Assembly: GCF_001988955.1 (NCBI RefSeq)
Contig: NZ_CP014263.1
Coordinates: forward strand, 5,082,501 to 5,146,500
Length of the DNA stretch: 64,000 nucleotides
Direction of reading: 5' to 3'
From: Spirosoma montaniterrae
GTDB taxonomy: Bacteria > Bacteroidota > Bacteroidia > Cytophagales > Spirosomataceae
Both the position numbers and the translations under genes were made by a program. The notes under the pieces are model-generated. The model searched no databases. It saw only the letters and a program-made list of their open reading frames with translations, and had not been told where the DNA came from. Positions 23,379 through 64,000 of this stretch are shown piece by piece. Position 1 is the stretch's first letter, and the number at the start of each line of letters is the position of its first letter.

Positions 23379-26300
23379 TTACACCTTTCCCCTTAGAAAG
23401 TCAGCCGTATAGTTTTGCCCTTCGGATAGTTTTACCATATCTTCGGGCGTACCCGTGAACGTGATGTAGCCACCAGTTTCGCCACCTTCGGGGCCGAGGT
23501 CGATAATGTGGTCGGCGCATTTGATGACCTCCATGTTGTGTTCGATAATCAGTACCGAATCGCCCTGATCGACGAGTGCGTTGATGGCTTTCAACAACTT
23601 ACGAATGTCGTGGAAGTGCAGCCCGGTGGTCGGTTCATCGAAAATGAACAGCGTACCGCCTTTGTTCGGGTTGCCTTTACCCAGAAACGACGCCAGCTTA
23701 ACCCGCTGTGCCTCGCCCCCCGACAGCGTATTGGCCGACTGACCCAGCCCGATATAACCCAGCCCGACCTCCTGCAATGGCAGCAGCTTATCGGCCATTT
23801 TTGGCTCGGCATCACGGAAAAACTCGATGGCTTCGTCAACGGTCATGTCCAGAATGTCCGACACGTTTTTGTCGCGTAGCGTAACTTCCAGCACCTCCTG
23901 TTTGAAGCGTTTACCGCCACAGCCTTCACATTTGAGGTAAATGTCGGCCATGAACTGCATTTCGATTTTCACCTCGCCCTCGCCCTGACAAACCTCGCAG
24001 CGGCCCCCATCGACGTTGAACGAAAAATGGCTCGGTTTATACCCCCGCGACTTCGATACACCCTGCTCGGCCATCACCTGCCGCAGATAGTCGTAGGCTT
24101 TGATGTATGTGACCGGGTTCGACCGGCTCGACTTGCCGATAGGGTTCTGATCGATCATTTCGATGGCCGAGATGCGGTCGACTGAGCCGGTTAGTTCGGT
24201 GTATTTGCCTGCTTCTTCGGCAGCATCGCCTTTTTGCCGCATCAAAGCCGGGTATAACACCTTCCGAATCAGCGTACTCTTCCCCGATCCCGACACACCC
24301 GTCACGACCGTGAGCGTATTGAGCGGAATCCTGACATCAACGTCTTTCAGGTTATTTTCCCGTGCACCTTTTAACTCGATAAAATTTGTAGACTTGCGCC
24401 GGAACGATGGCACCGGCACCGTTTCGCGGCCCGTCAGAAAGTCGAGCGTGTGGCTTTTTAGTGATGAGTGATGAGTGATGAGTGATGAGTTGGCATCATC
24501 TGATAACTTTTCACTTTTCACTTTTAACTCATCACTAATCCTCCCCTGAAACACCAGATGTCCACCCAGCGTACCGGCGTCGGGGCCAATGTCGATGAGT
24601 TGGTCGGCAGCCCGCATTACCTCTTCTTCGTGTTCTACCACAATCACGGTGTTGCCCATATCGCGCAGCGATTCGAGTACGCTAACGAGTCGTTTGGTAT
24701 CGCGCGGGTGTAGGCCAATGCTGGGTTCATCCAGAATATACATCGATCCGACCAGTGCCGAGCCGAGCGAAGTTGCCAGTTTGATACGCTGATACTCACC
24801 GCCCGATAAGCTGTTAGTCAGACGGTTGAGCGTGAGGTAGCCCAGCCCTACGCGCTCCATGTAATCGAGCCGATTCCGAATCTCAATCAGAATGCGGTTA
24901 GCTACCTGTTGCTGATGGGCAGGCAGTTCGATAGTGCGAAAGAAAGCTGCCGTTTGCGTAATTGGCATCAAAACCAGGTCGGTAATGGAAACCCCACCCG
25001 CGTCCCCTCCCCGTTCAGGGAGGGGTGAGCCATCCGGGTCTTTTTGGCCCCTCCCTAATGGGGAGGGGTTGGGGTGGGGTAACTTCACATAACTCGCATC
25101 TTTCCGTAGCCGCGACCCCCGGCATTCGGGGCAGGTGGTTTTGCCCCGATAACGCGACAGCATGACGCGATACTGTACTTTAAACGTCTGACTTTCAACA
25201 AACTGGAAAAAAGAGTTCAGACCGCTGAAATAGTGGTTGCCGGTCCAGAGCAGTTCCTGTTCGTTGGGTGAGAGTTCTTTATAAGGCCGGTGAATCGGGA
25301 AGTCGAACCGGATGCCGTTGCGAAGAAGTGGTTTCAGGAATTCTTCGCTCATTTTTTCACTACGCCACGGCATAATGGCTCCCTCGAATACCGACAGATT
25401 TTTGTCGGGAATAACCAAATCGGGGTCGATGCCCAGCACTTTGCCGAAACCATCGCACCGGCGGCAGGCACCGTAGGGATTGTTGAACGTGAACAGGTTT
25501 ACGCTCGGCTCCTCGAACGCGATGCCGTCTAACTCAAATTTGTCGGAGAATGTCCGCGATTCTTTACCAACCACGTCGACCCGGCACATGCAGTCGCCTT
25601 CGTTGAAAGCCGTTTGTACCGAATCAGAGAAACGGTATTGCGTATCTTCGTCGGGCTGACCCTCTTCGTCTACAACGACTGTTCCACGGTCGATCAGGAT
25701 TTCAAGTGATAAGTGATGAGCGAAAAGCGTATTGCTGCCAATCTCGTTCAGCATTAACGCTTCATTTTTCACTGTTAATTTTTCACTTGCCAGAACGTCT
25801 TCAATCTGCAACACCTCATCGTCGACCACGATGCGCGTGTAGCCTTTTTGCAGCAAAATTTTCAGCTCGTACTCAAGCGAACGCCCCTCGTGAATAAGCA
25901 AGGGCGTCATAATCATGACCCGCTGCCCGGCCTCAAACGAGAAAATATAATTGACCACGTCGGTCACGGTATCGCGCTTAACTTCGCGGCCCGAAACGGG
26001 CGAGTAGGTAACGCCTGCCCGTGCAAAAAGCAGTTTCAGGTAATCGTAGATTTCGGTGCTGGTGCCAACCGTTGAGCGTGGGTTTCGGGTCGAAACTTTC
26101 TGCTCGATGGCAATGGCTGGCGAAACGCCTTTGATGTACTCGACCTCGGGTTTTTCCATGCGGCCCAGAAACTGCCGGGCGTAGCTGCTCAGGCTTTCGA
26201 CGTACATCCGTTGCCCTTCGGCAAACAGCGTATCGAACGCGAGCGACGACTTGCCCGACCCCGACAGGCCCGTTAATACCACCAGTTTATTGCGTGGAAT

Positions 26301-26429
26301 AGCAACGTCAATTCCTTTCAGATTGTGTACTTTCGCCCCTTTGATGATAATAAACTGTTTGGGGTCGAGCTGGTCAACCGAACGCGGCTGACTGGCCGTC
26401 GGGCGTTCAGTTTCCTTGAGTGAAGTCAT
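23379..26429 (-). CDS. uvrA: Excinuclease ABC subunit A, enlarged by three in-frame repeat insertions
   Basis: 1016 residues; UvrA is usually about 930-950. UvrA with UvrB finds bulky DNA lesions for nucleotide excision repair. First Walker [16 protein letters not shown] at about 54, signature [15 protein letters not shown], Walker [14 protein letters not shown]; second Walker [14 protein letters not shown], zinc module CEVC...[19 protein letters not shown] and [13 protein letters not shown]. Three stretches have no counterpart in the family: residues about 214-242 ([19 protein letters not shown] region), 451-480 ([20 protein letters not shown]) and 631-657 ([20 protein letters not shown]). 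Each translates a palindromic repeat of 87, 90 and 81 bp. All are multiples of three, so the frame is kept and all catalytic motifs survive. Confidence 0.96.
24458..24538. repeat. 81-bp heptamer-repeat palindrome inserted in frame in uvrA
   Basis: Perfect 12-bp inverted ends TTAGTGATGAGT (24458-24469) and ACTCATCACTAA (24527-24538). The left arm repeats TGAGTGA four times; the right arm is built of CTTTTCA heptamers. The unit belongs to the same RTGAAAA/GTGATGA family as the array at 3759-3860. Length 81 bp, 27 codons, keeping the uvrA frame. Confidence 0.8.
24991..25080. mobile_element. 90-bp paired-hairpin element inserted in frame in uvrA (gene-less relative of the DUF559 element)
   Basis: The ends ACCCCACCC (24991-24999) and GGGTGGGGT (25072-25080) are inverted copies. 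Just inside each lies a GC-rich hairpin: CCCCTCCCC/GGGAGGGG and CCCCTCCC/GGGGAGGGG. They are separated by 22 bases (TGAGCCATCCGGGTCTTTTT region). The right end, reverse complemented, starts TTACCCCACCCCAACCCC and agrees over 23 bases with the left end of the DUF559 element at 62046-62068. At 30 codons it leaves uvrA in frame and is translated as [12 protein letters not shown]...PERGGDAGG. Confidence 0.8.
25703..25789. repeat. 87-bp heptamer-repeat palindrome inserted in frame in uvrA
   Basis: Inverted ends CAAGTGA (25703-25709) and TCACTTG (25783-25789). Heptamers AGTGATA, AGTGATG, AGCGAAA on the left; CATTTTT, CACTGTT, AATTTTT, CACTTGC on the right. An inner AAGCGT/ACGCTT pair closes the loop. 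Length 29 codons, in frame with uvrA. Confidence 0.75.
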
Positions 26430-56577: not shown

Positions 56578-57447
56578 TTATCTGTTGCTGGCGAGCTTAT
56601 GAACAAAATCTTCACTCACCTCAACAGTTTGGGCTATCTGACTAACGGTTAAAATGCCCAAACTCAAGAGGTTTTTAACGGTCTCTGTCTTTACTGATAA
56701 ATTCTCAGCTTCTTTAGCTTCTTTAATTCGTTGCTTTTCAGCCTTCACGGCCTCTGCGTTGGCGGCTGTTACACGAGCGAAATAGGCCCGCTCTTCCGGG
56801 GTCATCTTTCGGGTGTCCAACTCCTCAATGGCACGGCGGAGCCACTCCTCATTCCAGAATGCCGGGTATTGAGTCGGTTCGGTTGTATGAAGCGTCTTCA
56901 TCGTGTAAATAAGTTTATCTAAATCGGTTTCTACCTCAGCTATTGATTTGGTGAATTTAGCTAACTCTACAATGATAAATGTCATTTGTGAGTCAATAGT
57001 TTCGCCCTGTTCGCTTCGCAGATTGGCAACCGTATGAAAACGGGTTGTTGGTAATATATTCTTCACTAAAATGGCAATAGCGTAGATTCGGGGCAGGTTA
57101 GCATAGTCAAATTCGCCCCGCTCCACTACGGTATTGAATTTGTGCAAGGCGTAGAATTTCATGCGTTGTACAAAGTGAGGGGCCAGTCCTAACTGCATTT
57201 CGACAATGAACTGTGTACCGTTTTCGTCGGTACAGGCTAAATCAAAAATGCCGCTCCGACTGTCTATGGTCAACGCTTCGAAAGCATTTTTGTCGAAACG
57301 CACGTCACGAATTGGCGTCTCTGATTTAATCAGTGCCTGCAAAGCTACCCGCAAAAACAGGCTATCTGCTTCATTGCCGAAGGTTGCCTTAAAACCGTAA
57401 TCAGAAAGGATTGAGATAAACCGTCTGTCTTCACTGTACAAGTCCAT
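56578..57447 (-). CDS. Rpn family PD-(D/E)XK nuclease, putative transposase-like recombination nuclease
   Basis: 289 residues. The N-terminus SILSDYGFKATFGNEADS and the metal site IFDLACTDENGTQFIVEMQ (Asp, then Glu-x-Gln) are the Rpn/PDDEXK_2 signature; FVQRMKFYALHKFN and IYAIAILVKNILP follow. C-terminally a Lys/Glu-rich coiled coil (about 215-255) leads to a helix-turn-helix-like segment (LSLGILTVSQIAQTVEVS). Rpn proteins promote RecA-independent recombination in Escherichia coli and occur in multiple copies. There are no terminal repeats or target duplications visible around it. It opens the accessory region at the right end of the window. Confidence 0.9.
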   Translation of the reverse strand: MDLYSEDRRFISILSDYGFKATFGNEADSLFLRVALQALIKSETPIRDVRFDKNAFEALTIDSRSGIFDLACTDENGTQFIVEMQLGLAPHFVQRMKFYALHKFNTVVERGEFDYANLPRIYAIAILVKNILPTTRFHTVANLRSEQGETIDSQMTFIIVELAKFTKSIAEVETDLDKLIYTMKTLHTTEPTQYPAFWNEEWLRRAIEELDTRKMTPEERAYFARVTAANAEAVKAEKQRIKEAKEAENLSVKTETVKNLLSLGILTVSQIAQTVEVSEDFVHKLASNR

Positions 57448-57630: not shown

Positions 57631-58095
57631 TCAACTACACTTTGATACTAACCAGCCGAAAAACAACACAATCAGAATCAAGAAAATGATTTGGATGATT
57701 GTCGTTACCTTATCGTTATTTTTAAGATGTCTGTACGCTCCATCCAAATCTCCATTTCTTATTAGATGCGGTGACTCACTTGTAACAATTTCTGTTGCTC
57801 GCTCTTGATTACCATTTTCATATGCTTTGTAGAAATTTTTTTTCCAACTACTCTCATGTGCAGCTTTTTTAGCCATAAGGACCTGCTTTTCTTGGGTTGC
57901 CCGTTTAGCTGGATTCCATTTAGTACCGCATGACAAACAGTAAACATCAATGTTACTACTGCCGTGAAAACCTGCGAGCACTCCAACTCCGCCAGTCACT
58001 ATAGCACCTGCTACAGCTTTTCCACCACTAAAGCCCCTTTTTTGGGCTGAAATTTGCGTTGATTTACACTTTGGACACTGTACAGATTCGCTCAT
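57631..58095 (-). CDS. Zinc-ribbon membrane protein, paralogue A
   Basis: 154 residues. N-terminal zinc ribbon with CPKC (residues 7-10) and CLSC/CGTKW (about 53-57), separated by a Gly-rich hydrophobic insert (FSGGKAVAGAIVTGGVGVLA). A charged helical middle follows and a C-terminal membrane helix (TTIIQIIFLILIVLFFGWLV). A clear paralogue lies 280 bp upstream (58376-58828), in the same order and orientation. Function unknown; a membrane-tethered nucleic-acid or protein binder is conceivable. The codon use looks more AT-rich than the neighbouring housekeeping genes. Confidence 0.75.
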   Translation of the reverse strand: MSESVQCPKCKSTQISAQKRGFSGGKAVAGAIVTGGVGVLAGFHGSSNIDVYCLSCGTKWNPAKRATQEKQVLMAKKAAHESSWKKNFYKAYENGNQERATEIVTSESPHLIRNGDLDGAYRHLKNNDKVTTIIQIIFLILIVLFFGWLVSKCS

Positions 58096-58375: not shown

Positions 58376-58828
58376 TCATCCTATACAAGATGCTACCCAG
58401 CCAACTACTCCAACAACTAATCCCATAAGAATTAGCATAATAAGCTTGGAATTCCTGTCTTCTTTTTTCAGGTCTTTGTAAATCTCTGGCAGAGTGGAAG
58501 CCTCTAACATGTAAGGCCGTTGGTCAAGAATAATCTCCTCCGCTTTGTACAAGTAACTGTTTTCAAACGCATGATAGAAATTAGCCTTCCAACGTTTTTC
58601 ATCTAAAACTTGGGCTTGTCGCTGCTCTGTCAACCGGCGTGCTGGCGACCAAGTATGACCACATTTTAGGCAATGTACGTCTACATTGCCACTGCCATGA
58701 AAGCCCGTAAGTACGCCAACACCACCTATAACTACAGCACCAGCAACGGCTTTGCCACTACTGAAACCACGTTTTTGGGCTGAAATTTGATTTGAATTGC
58801 ACTTAGGACAATGTATAGAGTCACTCAT
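58376..58828 (-). CDS. Zinc-ribbon membrane protein, paralogue B
   Basis: 150 residues from ATG 58828 (MSDSIHCPKCNSNQISAQKR). The frame is open to 58954, but that part has no homology to the paralogue. Same build as the gene at 57631: CPKC, Gly-rich insert (FSSGKAVAGAVVIGGVGVLT), CLKCGHTW, a helical middle and a C-terminal membrane helix (LIMLILMGLVVGVVGWVA). The two are closely alike in the first 70 residues and diverge later, so a tandem duplication is likely. Function unknown. Confidence 0.75.
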   Translation of the reverse strand: MSDSIHCPKCNSNQISAQKRGFSSGKAVAGAVVIGGVGVLTGFHGSGNVDVHCLKCGHTWSPARRLTEQRQAQVLDEKRWKANFYHAFENSYLYKAEEIILDQRPYMLEASTLPEIYKDLKKEDRNSKLIMLILMGLVVGVVGWVASCIG

Positions 58829-59301
58829 AAAGACTCGAAATTTGATTGTGATGAGTATTACAAACCTGCCAAACCGGGGCGTTCCTGGGTCGTCAGAAAC
58901 TTGAATATAAAAACCAAAGCCGCTTAAACGGGGTGTTTGGCCCGACAGCCGCAATCCAGAAACAGAATCCTATATCTGACTTTGCTTACAACGACAATCA
59001 GTTTGAAGGATACAGGCTATCAATGCAACAACTGCATCACAGTCATTGCGCTGCCTATATGCTGAAACTGTACAACAATAATAAGTTGTCAAATACTACT
59101 TTATATATAAATTTATTGAATGGTAAATTTAAAGTTTACCTTATTTGAAGAAAAGTACTTATGCTCCACTCATCCCCCTCTTCCTGAACGCTTTACGCTG
59201 ACTTCTCGTTAAATTCAGACCCGCCGATGCTTTCTTTATAGGTAAAACCGTTGATCGATTCGTTTATACAACTGAGTCGGGTTTTCGTTTGTCTGAATCG
59301 T
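58829..59301. other. Intergenic region, 473 bp, AT-rich, no gene supported
   Basis: It separates divergent genes. I see an inverted pair GCCAAAC/GTTTGGC (58869-58942 region) and a small hairpin GGTAAA...TTTACC at 59122-59140, but no tRNA or convincing gene. The open frame at 58933-59148 has no family resemblance and no neighbours that support it. Confidence 0.5.
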
Positions 59302-62043
59302 ATGAAAACGCAATGGATGGTGTTGGGCGCGGTGGGCGGTGCGGTGGCACTGACGCTGTCGTCGTTTTTGGGGGTGTTTGAGAAGCGCGTTGACTATAAC
59401 ACGCAGATTAAGCCTATTCTCAACAAAAACTGCATTGCCTGTCACGGGGGCGTTAAGAAGGCGTCGGGCTTTTCGCTGCTCTTCAAACATGAAGCACTGG
59501 CCCCGGCCAAGTCGGGCAAACCGGCCATTATTCCCGGCGACGCCGACAATAGCGAACTCATCCGGCGGCTTACACTCACCGACCCCGACGAGCGGATGCC
59601 GCTCGATCACCCGCCCCTGAAACCCGACGAAATTGACCTGCTCACCAAATGGATCGATCAGGGTGCCGAATGGGGCGATCATTGGGCCTATCAGCGCGTG
59701 GAACGGCCCGACGTGCCGGAAGTTGGCACGTTCTGGAGTCGCCTTGGTTTGGCCGAAAGCGACGAAACAAAATGGGTTAAAAACGAAATAGATCATTTTA
59801 TTCTGCGCGAGTTAGAGACGCAAAATCTTACGTCGTTACGTTCGCCCGAGGCTGACCGGGCTACGCTCATCCGGCGCGTGTCGCTCGACCTCACGGGGTT
59901 GCCACCCACCGAGCGGGAAGTGGCTGACTTTGTGAACGATAAATCGCCGGACGCGTATGAAAAAGTGGTTGACCGGCTGTTGGCGTCGCCCGCTTACGGC
60001 GAACGCTGGACGGGCATGTGGCTCGATTTGGCCCGCTACGCCGATACCAAAGGCTACGAGCGCGACCCTGGTCGGAAAATCTGGCGATACCGCGACTGGC
60101 TCATCAAAGCCTTCAACAGCGACATGCCGTTCGACCGGTTCACGACTGAGCAACTGGCGGGCGATTTGTTACCCACACCTACCGACGATCAATTGGTCGC
60201 AACGGGCTTTCATCGCAATACCATGACCAACGACGAAGGCGGCACGCAGGACGAAGAGTTCCGGGTGGCGGCTGTCATGGACCGGGTTAATACTACGTGG
60301 GACGTATTCCAGGGTACGACCTTCGCCTGTATTCAGTGCCACAGTCACCCCTACGACCCCTTTACGCACGATGAGTATTACAAGTATCTCGCCTTCTTCA
60401 ACAACGCCCGCGACGAGGACGTAACAACCGATACACCCACGCTGCGATTCTACAGGGACAAAGATTCGGTAGAGGCTTTGGCCCTGAAACACTGGATGCT
60501 GAAGAACGTTTCGGCACGGGGCGAATCGGCGCATGAGCGGTTTTTGCGGACGATGGAGCCGAAGTATAACTCGCACAGCATCAAACAGGTAGCTAATGCG
60601 TCGCTGCTCGATGCCAAGTTTTTCGGGGCGCAGCACAATGGATTGGGGCAATTGGATGGCGTTGACATGACCGGCAAAAACCGGCTGTTGCTCGCCTGGG
60701 GTACGAAGGACGCTGGAGCCAGCCTTGTTGTTCGGCAGGATAAACCCGACGGGCCGGTGTTGCTTACGCAGCCCGTACCGAAGACCGGCAATCAATGGAA
60801 CGATACCATTCAGGCATTTTCGATACCGGCGGTGGCTGGGCGGCATACGCTGTTTTTCTCGTTCAGTAACCCCAAAAATCCCAAAAACTGGACAATGATT
60901 AAGTGGGTGGCCTTGCAACAGGCTCTGCCCGATGCCGCGCAGGAGAAACGCTATCTAACCCTGCTCAACAAAGAAGTCGACCAAACGCCGATTATGCTCG
61001 ACGGTACGGGCGATCTGGCCCGAACTACGCATATTTTCGAGCGGGGTAACTGGCTGGTGAAAGGCAAGCGCGTATCGCCCGACGTGCCGAAGATTTTTCC
61101 GGCAATGGACGCTAAACTGCCCAAAAACAGGCTCGGTCTGGCCCGCTGGATGACCAGCCGCGACCACCCGCTCACGGCCCGCGTAGCCGTAAACCGATTC
61201 TGGGAACAACTCTTCGGCGCGGGTATTGTCGAAACGGTCGAAGACATGGGTACGCAGGGCATTCCGCCCACGCACCGCGAACTGCTCGATTATTTAGCAG
61301 TCGAATTTATGGAAACCGACCGCTGGAGCGTAAAGAAACTGCTGAAACGTCTGGTACTGTCGGCTACGTACCGGCAGCGGTCGGAAGCCTCGCCTGAACT
61401 GTTGGCAAAAGACCCGTTCAACAAACTGCTGGCGCGGGGGCCGCGCGTCCGGCTTTCTGCCGAGGCCGTGCGCGATCAGGCGTTGGCCGTGAGCGGGTTG
61501 CTGAGCCAGAAAATGTACGGTCCAAGTGTAATGCCGGTGCAACCCGATGGCATCTGGCAGTCGCCCTACGACGGCGAAAGCTGGAAGCAAAGCGAGGGCG
61601 AAGACCTGCACCGGCGGGCATTGTACACCTACTGGAAACGCACGGCCCCGTATCCATCGATGGTGACGTTCGACAGCCCCAGCCGCGAGTTTTGCCAGTT
61701 GCGCCGACTTCGTACCAACACCCCGTTGCAGGCTTTGGTCACGCTTAACGACCCGGTCTATGTTGAAGCTGCCCAGCACTTAGCCGAGTATATGCGACAG
61801 CACGGCAAAACGCCCGAACAGCAGATTCAGGCCGGTTTCCGGCGCGTGATGCTCCGCGATCTGGCTCCGAAGAAGCTGACTGTTTTACTGCAACTGTACC
61901 GAAATACGGAAGCGCACTATCAGCAAAAACCCGACGAAGTGAAAAAACTGATGGCCTGCACAGACGCAACGCCCCAATTGGCCGCGCTGACCGTTACGGC
62001 AAATACGATGTTGAATCTGGACGAGGTGATAACGAAAGAGTGA
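59302..62043 (+). CDS. PSD1-type protein: cytochrome c-like, DUF1549 and DUF1553 domains
   Basis: 913 residues from ATG 59302 (MKTQWMVLGAVGGAVALTLS), a signal or anchor helix; the frame is open from 59251. A PSCyt1 haem motif comes first (KPILNKNCIACHGG, at about 40). Then DUF1549 (TGLPPTEREVADFVN, RYADTKGYERDPGRKIWRY, FDRFTTEQLAGDLLPTP), a middle beta domain, and DUF1553 (HPLTARVAVNRFWEQLFGAG, LDYLAVEFMETDRWSVKKL, SPSREFCQLRRLRTNTPLQA). The family is best known from Planctomycetes, where it pairs with DUF1501 proteins. The partner gene here is downstream, but a DUF559 element separates them. Confidence 0.92.
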   Translation: MKTQWMVLGAVGGAVALTLSSFLGVFEKRVDYNTQIKPILNKNCIACHGGVKKASGFSLLFKHEALAPAKSGKPAIIPGDADNSELIRRLTLTDPDERMPLDHPPLKPDEIDLLTKWIDQGAEWGDHWAYQRVERPDVPEVGTFWSRLGLAESDETKWVKNEIDHFILRELETQNLTSLRSPEADRATLIRRVSLDLTGLPPTEREVADFVNDKSPDAYEKVVDRLLASPAYGERWTGMWLDLARYADTKGYERDPGRKIWRYRDWLIKAFNSDMPFDRFTTEQLAGDLLPTPTDDQLVATGFHRNTMTNDEGGTQDEEFRVAAVMDRVNTTWDVFQGTTFACIQCHSHPYDPFTHDEYYKYLAFFNNARDEDVTTDTPTLRFYRDKDSVEALALKHWMLKNVSARGESAHERFLRTMEPKYNSHSIKQVANASLLDAKFFGAQHNGLGQLDGVDMTGKNRLLLAWGTKDAGASLVVRQDKPDGPVLLTQPVPKTGNQWNDTIQAFSIPAVAGRHTLFFSFSNPKNPKNWTMIKWVALQQALPDAAQEKRYLTLLNKEVDQTPIMLDGTGDLARTTHIFERGNWLVKGKRVSPDVPKIFPAMDAKLPKNRLGLARWMTSRDHPLTARVAVNRFWEQLFGAGIVETVEDMGTQGIPPTHRELLDYLAVEFMETDRWSVKKLLKRLVLSATYRQRSEASPELLAKDPFNKLLARGPRVRLSAEAVRDQALAVSGLLSQKMYGPSVMPVQPDGIWQSPYDGESWKQSEGEDLHRRALYTYWKRTAPYPSMVTFDSPSREFCQLRRLRTNTPLQALVTLNDPVYVEAAQHLAEYMRQHGKTPEQQIQAGFRRVMLRDLAPKKLTVLLQLYRNTEAHYQQKPDEVKKLMACTDATPQLAALTVTANTMLNLDEVITKE

Positions 62044-62059
62044 CTTTACCCCACCCCAA

Positions 62060-62085
62060 CCCCTCCCCTGAAAACAGGGGAGGGG
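62060..62085. repeat. Left GC-rich hairpin of the DUF559 element
   Basis: Eleven-base stem CCCCTCCCCTG/CAGGGGAGGGG with AAAA loop. In transcript form it would also act as a strong hairpin right after the PSD1 gene. Confidence 0.85.
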
Positions 62086-62100
62086 CTTAGCTGGATACCA

Positions 62101-62472
62101 ATGGGACAGATTTTACACAATAGAAAGAATATGGAAGAACTGCGTCGGGAACTGCGAAAACAGCTTACCGATGCCGAAGCTATACTTTGGAGCTATCTGA
62201 GAAGCAATCAGTTAGGTGGGCGAAAGTTTAGGCGACAACACAGCGTTGGTAGTTACGTACTTGATTTTTACTGCACTGCCGAACGGTTGGCGATTGAAGT
62301 CGATGGCTCTGTACACCAACAGCCAGAAAACCTTCTGCACGATCAGGAACGGGATGACGCGCTGGCGAATCTTGGTATCAGAACGATACGCATTAAAAAC
62401 GATGAGGTCGAAGCAGACATAAGCAGCGTTTTGCAACGAATTAGTGAACAGTTCGTAAACAATTCACATTGA
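62101..62472 (+). CDS. DUF559 domain protein, Vsr-like endonuclease fold
   Basis: 123 residues. DUF559 proteins belong to the restriction-endonuclease-like clan near the very-short-patch repair nucleases. The core is complete: ELRKQLTDAEAILWSYLRSN, RKFRRQHSVGSYVLDFYCTA, LAIEVDGSVHQQPENLLHDQ and LGIRTIRIKNDEVEADISSV; the Asp in VLDFYC and Glu/Asp in IEVDGS are candidate metal ligands. The start may be 62101 or ATG 62131 (MEELRRELRKQ). It is enclosed by inverted hairpins (element 62045-62520). Family activity on DNA is inferred from the fold; a role in spreading the repeats is a hypothesis. Confidence 0.88.
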   Translation: MGQILHNRKNMEELRRELRKQLTDAEAILWSYLRSNQLGGRKFRRQHSVGSYVLDFYCTAERLAIEVDGSVHQQPENLLHDQERDDALANLGIRTIRIKNDEVEADISSVLQRISEQFVNNSH

Positions 62473-62478
62473 GCTTCC

Positions 62479-62504
62479 CCCCTCCCCTGAAAACAGGGGA
62501 GGGG
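62479..62504. repeat. Right GC-rich hairpin of the DUF559 element
   Basis: Same stem and AAAA loop as the left copy, but placed so that the outer flank (CCGGGGGTGGGGTAAA) is inverted relative to the left one. It ends about 20 bases before the DUF1501 start. Confidence 0.85.
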
Positions 62505-62526
62505 CCGGGGGTGGGGTAAAAACACT

Positions 62527-64000
62527 ATGAACAACCTGCTCAAAGAACTTCAACAAGCCGCTGCCGAGCGCGAAACCCGGCGGCATTTTCTGCATACCTG
62601 CTCAACTGGGCTGGGCGCGATGGCCCTTAGCTCTATTCTGGGCGGCTGTGGTTTCTTCGGAAAAGAGAACGGCACGGCTGCCGTAGGTGGCCCGTCGCCC
62701 ATTACTGACAACCCTTCTCTGCCGCAGCCATCGCAATTTGTGCCGAAGGCGAAGCGGGTAATCTACATTCACATGGCCGGGTCGCCGAGCCAGTTGGAAC
62801 TGTTCGATTACAAGCCCGAATTGATCAAGTACAACGGCAAAGACTGCCCGCAGGAACTGCTCGAAGGAAAGAAATTTGCCTTCATTCGGGGCGTTCCGAA
62901 AATGCTGGGGCCGCAGGGTAAATTCGCCCAGCACGGACAGTCGGGTGCGTGGGTGTCTGACTATCTGCCGCATTTACAGGGCGTTGTCGATGAAATCTCG
63001 TTCCTCAAAGCCATGCATACCGACCAGTTCAACCATGCACCCGCACAGTTGCTGATGCATACGGGTAATGCCCGGCTGGGTCGGCCCAGCATTGGCTCGT
63101 GGGTGACGTATGGGCTGGGTACTGAAAACGATAACCTGCCGGGCTTTGTGGTGCTGGCATCGGGTGGCAAACAACCCGACGCGGGCAAGTCGGTTTGGGG
63201 AAGTGGCTTTCTGCCGACGGTGTATCAGGGCGTGCAGTGCCGCACCGACGGCGACCCGGTTTTGTATGCGTCTGACCCGGCGGGCATCAGCCGCGACGTG
63301 CGCAAACAAACCATCGACGCCATCAGTCAGATTAATCAGCAACAGTACGACGACGTGAAAGACCCCGAAATTCTGACCCGTATTGCCCAGTACGAACTGG
63401 CCTTTCGGATGCAGATGTCGGTGCCCGACGCGATGGACATCAAGAGCGAACCGCAGTATATTCTCGACAGTTACGGCGTTGACCCGGCCAAAGGCTCATT
63501 TGCCCGGAACTGTTTGTTGTCCAGAAGGTTGGTTGAGCGTGGCGTTCGCTTCGTGCAGTTGTTCGACTGGGGTTGGGATACACACGGCACGAGTGCCGAC
63601 GGGGCCATTGAAATCGGGTTGAAAAACAAGTGCCGCGAGTCGGACCAGGCGGTGGCGGCTCTGCTGAACGACCTCAAACAGCGCGGGCTGCTCGATGAAA
63701 CGCTGGTCGTATGGGGCGGTGAGTTTGGCCGCACGCCCATGCAGGAAAACCGCGACGGGCAGGTGCTGCCGTTCATGGGCCGCGACCACCACCTCGAAGC
63801 CTTCACGGTCTGGATGGCGGGCGGGGGGGTTAAACGCGGCTTCAGCTACGGCGAAACCGACGATATTGGCTACTATGGCGTGAAAGACAAAACCCACGTC
63901 CACGACCTCCAAGCCACGATTCTGCACCTGCTCGGCTTCGACCATGCCAAATTGACCTATCAGTTTCAGGGTCGCCCGTTCCGCCTGACCGACGTGGCCG
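62527..64000 (+). CDS. DUF1501 domain-containing protein (3' end outside the window)
   Basis: At least 491 residues; the frame is open to the window edge, and the last visible residues FQGRPFRLTDVA suggest only a few dozen bases are missing. The N-terminus has a twin-arginine-like signal (ETRRHFLHTCSTGLGAMALS), so export in a folded state is possible. The DUF1501 core is seen in VIYIHMAGSPSQLELFDYKP, HTGNARLGRPSIGSWVTYGL, RFVQLFDWGWDTHG and LVVWGGEFGRTPMQENRDGQ, then GRDHHLEAFTVWMAGGGVKR. The family resembles sulfatase/phosphatase folds and pairs with PSD1 proteins. The function of the pair is not established. Confidence 0.92.
   Translation, partial: MNNLLKELQQAAAERETRRHFLHTCSTGLGAMALSSILGGCGFFGKENGTAAVGGPSPITDNPSLPQPSQFVPKAKRVIYIHMAGSPSQLELFDYKPELIKYNGKDCPQELLEGKKFAFIRGVPKMLGPQGKFAQHGQSGAWVSDYLPHLQGVVDEISFLKAMHTDQFNHAPAQLLMHTGNARLGRPSIGSWVTYGLGTENDNLPGFVVLASGGKQPDAGKSVWGSGFLPTVYQGVQCRTDGDPVLYASDPAGISRDVRKQTIDAISQINQQQYDDVKDPEILTRIAQYELAFRMQMSVPDAMDIKSEPQYILDSYGVDPAKGSFARNCLLSRRLVERGVRFVQLFDWGWDTHGTSADGAIEIGLKNKCRESDQAVAALLNDLKQRGLLDETLVVWGGEFGRTPMQENRDGQVLPFMGRDHHLEAFTVWMAGGGVKRGFSYGETDDIGYYGVKDKTHVHDLQATILHLLGFDHAKLTYQFQGRPFRLTDVA

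Follow-up and report, generated by a model that had tools for sequence, protein, structure and literature searches.

The element described here has its closest known counterparts among small palindromic repeats and homing endonucleases. Repetitive extragenic palindromes (REPs) and bacterial interspersed mosaic elements (BIMEs) are dispersed, often paired palindromes without a gene, and in REPtrons one gene, for the REP-associated tyrosine transposase (RAYT, TnpA-REP), lies between two inverted palindromes; some REP copies are intragenic, for example in uvrA genes (PMC3733652). Rickettsia palindromic elements (RPEs) are small palindromes inserted in frame in protein genes (PMC10969869), and the CGTC REPs, RPEs included, apparently have no dedicated transposase (PMC3733652). 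Among the EDxHD homing endonucleases, such as I-Bth0305I (structure 3r3p), a Thermosynechococcus DUF559 gene has already been counted as a family member (PMC9403480). We analysed a stretch of 64,000 nucleotides of Spirosoma montaniterrae (contig NZ_CP014263.1, positions 5,082,501 to 5,146,500, forward strand; "the window" below), in which a DUF559 nuclease gene lies between inverted hairpins, a unit that we call the DUF559 palindrome element. We think it probable that this unit belongs to a mobile family resembling REPs and miniature inverted-repeat transposable elements (MITEs), with a minimal relative of the EDxHD/Vsr-type homing endonucleases as its mobility nuclease, and that it is tolerated where it lies in frame.

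With REPs, BIMEs and REPtrons the element shares the placement of one gene between two inverted palindromes and the presence of dispersed gene-less palindromes, often paired. It differs from REPtrons in its enzyme, a PD-(D/E)XK/Vsr-type nuclease rather than an HUH Y1 tyrosine transposase (PF01797), and in that the gene-bearing copy itself can sit in frame within host genes. By inspection, no GTAG tag stands by the hairpin as it does in REPs; the ends are C-rich and read ACCCCACCCC(AA)-hairpin, and their ACCCC...GGGGT form lacks the end tag of CGTC REPs and RPEs, although in-frame insertion into protein genes is a trait shared with RPEs. The catalytic domain is homologous to that of the EDxHD homing endonucleases and, as in them, the phylogeny clusters by insertion site, but inverted palindromic ends and gene-less derivatives set the element apart from those enzymes, and carriage on a palindrome-ended element sets its nuclease apart from the very-short-patch repair endonuclease Vsr. 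Palindromes inserted in frame (RPEs, GTAG and CGTC REPs) have been described, and so, independently of them, has a DUF559 gene as an EDxHD homing endonuclease. Searches of the open-access literature brought up no description of palindromes flanking DUF559 or of in-frame DUF559 elements, and the combination, the breadth and the protein-embedded life of the element appear to be new.

The architecture that a first-pass annotation, made from the letters of the window alone, had proposed was borne out: C-rich outer arms that are exact inverses of each other, an identical 11-bp-stem hairpin inside each end, and a single DUF559 gene between the hairpins, all in the gap between a PSD1 and a DUF1501 gene (Table 1). 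The open reading frame (ORF) matches PF04480 (DUF559) with an E value of 8.9e-32, and also PF18741, below that profile's cut-off; the DUF559 fold matches both I-Bth0305I and Vsr, and E26, D55, E66 and H72 are invariant residues of the nuclease. Hairpin CCCCTCCCCTGAAAACAGGGGAGGGG, allowing up to three mismatches, occurs at two places in the 64 kb, both at the element ends, and in none of 100 shuffles of the window. Folded as DNA, the left hairpin was better than 200 of 200 shuffles (z -4.4); the right was weaker (z -2.3), with five of 200 shuffles equally good. The protein has no further Pfam domain, an extended DNA-binding (NUMOD-like) part included, in a scan that could miss small motifs, and no intron or intein is seen around the nuclease.

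Table 1. Features of the DUF559 palindrome element, its neighbours and the uvrA copy, in window coordinates
Feature	Position	Strand	Remarks
Whole element (ACCCCACCCC ... GGGGTGGGGT)	62048-62517	+	470 bp
Element plus matching TTT/AAA	62045-62520	+	
Left outer arm TTTACCCCACCCC	62045-62057	+	
Right outer arm GGGGTGGGGTAAA	62508-62520	+	exact inverse of left arm
Left end hairpin CCCCTCCCCTGAAAACAGGGGAGGGG	62060-62085	+	11-bp stem, AAAA loop
Right end hairpin CCCCTCCCCTGAAAACAGGGGAGGGG	62479-62504	+	identical copy of left hairpin
DUF559 (PF04480) nuclease gene	62101-62472	+	123 aa, EDxHD/Vsr-type fold
Flanking PSD1/PSCyt gene	59251-62043	+	
Flanking DUF1501 gene	62527-63999	+	runs off window
Gene-less hairpin pair (MITE-like), in frame inside uvrA	24991-25080	-	hairpins 25004-25025, 25048-25068
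uvrA ORF, host of gene-less copy	23379-26429	-	1016 aa; Pfam UvrA_inter, UvrA_DNA-bind

A second copy that had been pointed out in uvrA is real, a gene-less hairpin pair within the UvrA ORF. The comparison gave a match in 35 of the 36 genomes of the genus, with 30 loci given, and the site was empty in all 29 other Spirosoma loci read. The empty site has the form VK(V/I)xxxSITD and is 27 nt long, against 108 nt in the window genome; the insertion thus amounts to a net gain of 27 codons, with about four target codons (about 12 nt) replaced. Because the site is empty in every other genus locus read, the uvrA copy is, by this comparison, a lineage-specific in-frame insertion. No target-site duplication was seen there, nor by eye in other copies, comparison at the base level being possible at few sites; a small target deletion with no duplication would fit break repair better than classical transposition.

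PF04480 occurs three times in the window genome (G000), the window gene included. The two other copies are embedded in longer frames, of methionine synthase (metH) and, in its linker, of methylmalonyl-CoA mutase (scpA); both keep the reading frame of the host and have inverted hairpins of the same kind at their borders. Downstream of the insertion the metH frame is broken where six G stand in a row in the cobalamin-domain linker (L004, near 785; a real mutation or a sequence error), and the metH copy is therefore no proof of a working host enzyme. The short-type hairpin pattern CCCCTCCCN{2,16}GGGAGGGG is found 127 times in this genome, against once for the reversed control, and many of these hairpins form gene-less, MITE-like pairs of about 90 bp, typically ACCCCACCCCAA-[hairpin]-about 20 nt-[hairpin]-TTGGGGTGGGGT. 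GTTA and AGAA, the loops of the metH and scpA gene-bearing copies respectively, are found again in gene-less pairs. With its terminal inverted repeats and dispersed gene-less copies, the family has the layout of classical insertion sequences and MITEs.

Gene-less copies also lie within genes. Among 40 hairpin loci read in the window genome, pairs chosen first, 10 have a frame that passes uninterrupted through the hairpin copy and is open for at least 100 codons to either side of it; three more are open on both sides but not through, two (L425 and L437) in one register with a stop inside and one (L440) with open frames on different strands. Nine of the ten ORFs that are crossed in this way were scanned with Pfam, and each has host domains: an MFS transporter, a radical-SAM/TRAM protein, a leucyl-tRNA synthetase, two ABC transporters, an amylase, a MeaB/mutase fusion, a PMT_2 protein and a TsaD-family protein. 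The MeaB/methylmalonyl-CoA-mutase fusion frame crosses gene-less copy L444 (1879832-1881272 of its own genome) and is the same kind of host as that of DUF559 elements L225 and L227. The spacer between arm and hairpin is AA at five of the 13 counted ends of in-frame loci and at 36 of 48 in the others (L415-L454); in-frame pairs more often have CGG, CAG or CGT. Very short GC-rich palindromic inserts (such as GGCAGCGGCCGACCGTC, GTCGGACCG-type and CTAACGGTTCGCCATAGCGTC-type) interrupt end repeats at L044, L069, L023, L032 (left ends), L048, L111 and L429, and are possibly still smaller mobile palindromes of the genus Spirosoma.

Insertion into the PSD1-DUF1501 gap had been suspected, and the sister junctions agree with it. 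Among 30 genus loci (one per genome, of which a few, such as that of G015, may be paralogous), eight have the gene-bearing element and 21 show neither it nor a remnant, while in one, G019, a remnant of the hairpins is present but the gene is not; G021, beyond this set, is a ninth genome with an occupied gap. Occupancy requires at least five changes on the PSD1 host tree (29 rows, eight occupied, G021 left out), and G010 is occupied where its nearest relatives, G027 and G007, are not. In the scpA linker (30 loci) the window genome has the gene-bearing form and G012 and G006 have in-frame hairpin pairs, the linker being short or decayed elsewhere in the genus; in G008 (L114) an out-of-frame palindrome copy lies in a linker whose frame is broken, a case in which the element has damaged its host gene. 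At the first metH site the element is present in the window genome only (29 readable of 30 loci). The empty PSD1 junctions, the empty uvrA sites and the dispersed gene-less pairs together support mobility well.

PF04480 is present in 222 of 392 Bacteroidota genomes. To look for inverted flanks, we matched the 230 nt on the left of the domain against the reverse-complemented 230 nt on its right, taking a score of at least 14 as a pass and flanks 700 nt further out as controls. Matching inverted flanks, which the first-pass annotation had expected at DUF559 genes elsewhere, were found at 69 of 107 Bacteroidota loci (24/27 loci of the genus, 28/48 in long frames, 17/32 standalone) and at none of 104 control flanks; mismatched left-right pairs reach score 14 in 8.6% of cases. 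The same test on the 80 best of at least 594 matched stretches, a second set, was passed by 16 of 34 loci labelled Bacteroidota, by 36 of 46 others (one of the 46 being Kryptoniota) and by 0 of 62 controls; 34 of these 80 loci lie within frames of at least 300 aa. The passing loci outside Bacteroidota come from Cyanobacteria, Chloroflexi, Proteobacteria, Nitrospirae, Patescibacteria, Verrucomicrobia, Kiritimatiellae, Brocadiaceae and more, and a Methanophagales archaeon has the same layout with a score below the threshold. Many of these are metagenome-assembled genomes, so single taxon assignments may be wrong.

As a rule, mobile elements either disrupt genes or are removed from them by splicing. 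The most striking feature of the DUF559 element, as read from its sequences, is in-frame insertion into conserved genes, which was absent from the first-pass annotation, as was the link to a family of homing endonucleases. Pfam placed PF04480 together with host domains on one or both sides in nine of nine fused proteins (metH at two sites, leuS, uvrC, recG, hsdR, two methylmalonyl-CoA-mutase types and hisF), in five of them between annotated domains (metH linker L206, scpA, leuS L204, recG, hsdR), and no Hint protein-splicing domain was detected at E <= 0.001 in the nine scanned. One leuS site (GRAEGWSY/.../YPYELSTMPGWAGSSWYW) holds a gene-less pair in the window genome and DUF559 elements in other families. 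A protein search from one metH copy, over candidates of limited length, gave 1509 related clusters with E <= 1e-10 among 1612 candidates; among the 120 matches listed, methionine synthases and methionyl-tRNA synthetases make up the majority, and leuS, ileS and urocanate hydratase are also represented. The sizes of two methionine synthases, P0001 (1702 aa) and P0021 (1642 aa), and for P0001 also the score, hint at more than one DUF559 copy per protein. The nuclease element appears to persist in translation within metH, leuS, scpA, recG, uvrC and others, in several phyla. Estimates of dN/dS were 0.05-0.30 in nine of the 16 pairs where estimable, several with saturated dS, and by this measure the DUF559 ORF is under purifying selection.

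The unit had been likened to REPs flanking their RAYT transposases. That likeness holds for the layout and fails for the enzyme: none of 28 Y1_Tnp loci of the genus (30 fetched, two too short to scan) carries the C-rich hairpin types, and we rejected Y1_Tnp/RAYT, the alternative examined, as the mobilizing enzyme. Since it was the DUF559 loci that supplied the hairpin patterns (24 of 27 match them), this comparison tests exclusivity only; the inverted-flank score of the 107 Bacteroidota loci is the test independent of them. Nor is DUF559 alone in having inverted flanks of some kind, because 9 of the 28 Y1_Tnp loci have inverted flanks of other sequence, with scores of at least 19.5. Some RAYT-like genes (L169-L198) have inverted palindromes of their own, such as GTCGC[A/G]TAGCGAC, unlike the C-rich family.

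Several points weigh against a mobile family driven by DUF559. The remaining 38 of the 107 Bacteroidota loci, the three recG loci and some leuS loci included, are without clear inverted flanks. At the PSD1 gap the DUF559 tree is broadly congruent with that of the hosts; inheritance with losses therefore has a share in the occupancy of that gap and may account for much of it. Moreover, the link between DUF559 and the hairpins is an association, and as such is open to the explanation that the palindrome pairs are moved by another, unlinked enzyme, DUF559 being a passenger caught between two ends. Classical MITEs are moved by enzymes encoded elsewhere, and gene-less copies far outnumber the three gene-bearing ones in the window genome; G012 and G024 have 11 and 12 hairpins with no DUF559 found, G024 being 84% complete. 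With the elements' own ends included, type-A hairpins occur in 9/9 genomes with DUF559 in the PSD1 gap and in 5/27 others (loose pattern, 9/9 and 13/27). With own ends set aside, which leaves G014 and G021 with no hairpins, the figures for the strict type are 7/9 and 5/27 (Fisher p 0.002, among genomes that are related) and for the loose pattern 7/9 and 13/27, which is not significant (p 0.24). Strict dependence of the hairpins on DUF559 is not supported. We nevertheless consider a passenger role for DUF559 unlikely: the domain lies between unlike palindrome types in many lineages, so that repeated capture of one gene family seems improbable, and the Y1 transposase loci of the genus carry other palindromes. 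Of the proposed self-mobility by DUF559, the mobility is well supported, and DUF559 as its driver is less certain, given the hairpins of G012 and G024 and the loci without clear flanks.

Phylogeny bears on how the element spreads. On a tree of 107 DUF559 domains, with few columns and many weak forks, 18 labels (insertion sites and three catch-all classes) require 28 changes; the mean in shuffles is 69.9, and none of 200 shuffles was as low. On this tree the domains thus tend to group by insertion site, even where the hosts belong to distant families. Copies in the metH linker come from several families, and the one in Spirosoma G029 is 67% identical to another family's copy at the same site and at most 49% identical to those of the 26 further genus loci in the comparison, while in the stretch compared its host metH shares 87% identity with that of the window genome. 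For hsdR, copies at the same site in Chloroflexi, an archaeon, Brocadiaceae, Kryptoniota and Acaryochloris share 57-78% identity, where the background median is 48%; this comparison is weaker because hsdR itself may travel. Part of this same-site retention across hosts may be vertical inheritance or host-gene transfer. The clustering by site, the hsdR identities across phyla and the homology to I-Bth0305I would all suit a plain homing endonuclease gene, one that cuts the empty allele of a single site and spreads solely through recombination in the host gene around it, with the palindromes neutral and unrecognized. This we judge improbable, since it leaves unexplained the inverted palindromes and the dispersed gene-less pairs with the same ends, and related copies lie at different sites of one genome (metH and scpA in G000, four copies in G201), where they cluster by genome. 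As clustering is seen both by site and by genome, site-retaining transfer and spread to new sites both seem to occur.

That DUF559 is a host Vsr-like very-short-patch repair gene, chancing to lie between terminator-like hairpins and not mobile, is extremely improbable: a Caulobacter DUF559 protein, VsrA, is linked to cytosine methylation (PMC12907096), but the empty sites, the in-frame insertion in unrelated genes and the dispersed matching pairs speak against it, and it is contradicted for the palindromes by the uvrA comparison and for the gene by the scpA and metH copies.

A mechanism for the DUF559 palindrome element has to cover what the sequences themselves display, namely its architecture, dispersal, empty sites, in-frame insertion, purifying selection, clustering by site and copies at several sites per genome. 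We infer that the nuclease moves the element. The gene-bearing form has a minimal Vsr/EDxHD-type nuclease gene between inverted end palindromes, each an outer arm ACCCCACCCC with a hairpin, and the gene-less pairs of about 90 bp with the same ends would be its non-autonomous form. Both lie between genes or, where their length keeps the frame, in protein genes, often at linkers, the in-gene copies being read as part of the host protein. The nuclease might cut or nick DNA at the palindromes or at the target, and repair would copy the element into the cut, giving homing between genomes at the same site and occasionally insertion at a new one; the ends would also serve in trans, allowing gene-less copies to spread. 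In its widest form, the proposal is that DUF559 defines a trans-phylum mobile class, in which a lone Vsr/EDxHD nuclease acts in cis and in trans on inverted palindromes, homes with occasional new insertion, and lives on as a translated, non-spliced extra domain in conserved enzymes; this wider statement could as easily prove wrong as right.

If the proposal holds, it would explain a large uncharacterized nuclease family, DUF559, and would provide the in-frame palindromic elements, which are a type of small palindromic repeat, with a nuclease. Many "DUF559 fusion" proteins would then be colonized hosts rather than new architectures, and the spread of a hairpin-ended element by a lone PD-(D/E)XK nuclease would become testable. 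Annotation calls for care: some host enzymes that carry the domain (P0020, P0043) are labelled "DUF559 domain-containing protein" in databases, and DUF559 proteins are often named very-short-patch-repair or "endonuclease domain-containing" protein.

Elsewhere in the window, two similar small ORFs lie in tandem on the minus strand (57631-58095 and 58376-58954). Both begin with a CPKC motif like that of a zinc ribbon, and inspection by eye shows a hydrophobic stretch at the C terminus. A further minus-strand ORF (56578-57447) appears to resemble the Rpn/PDDEXK_2 transposase-type nucleases.
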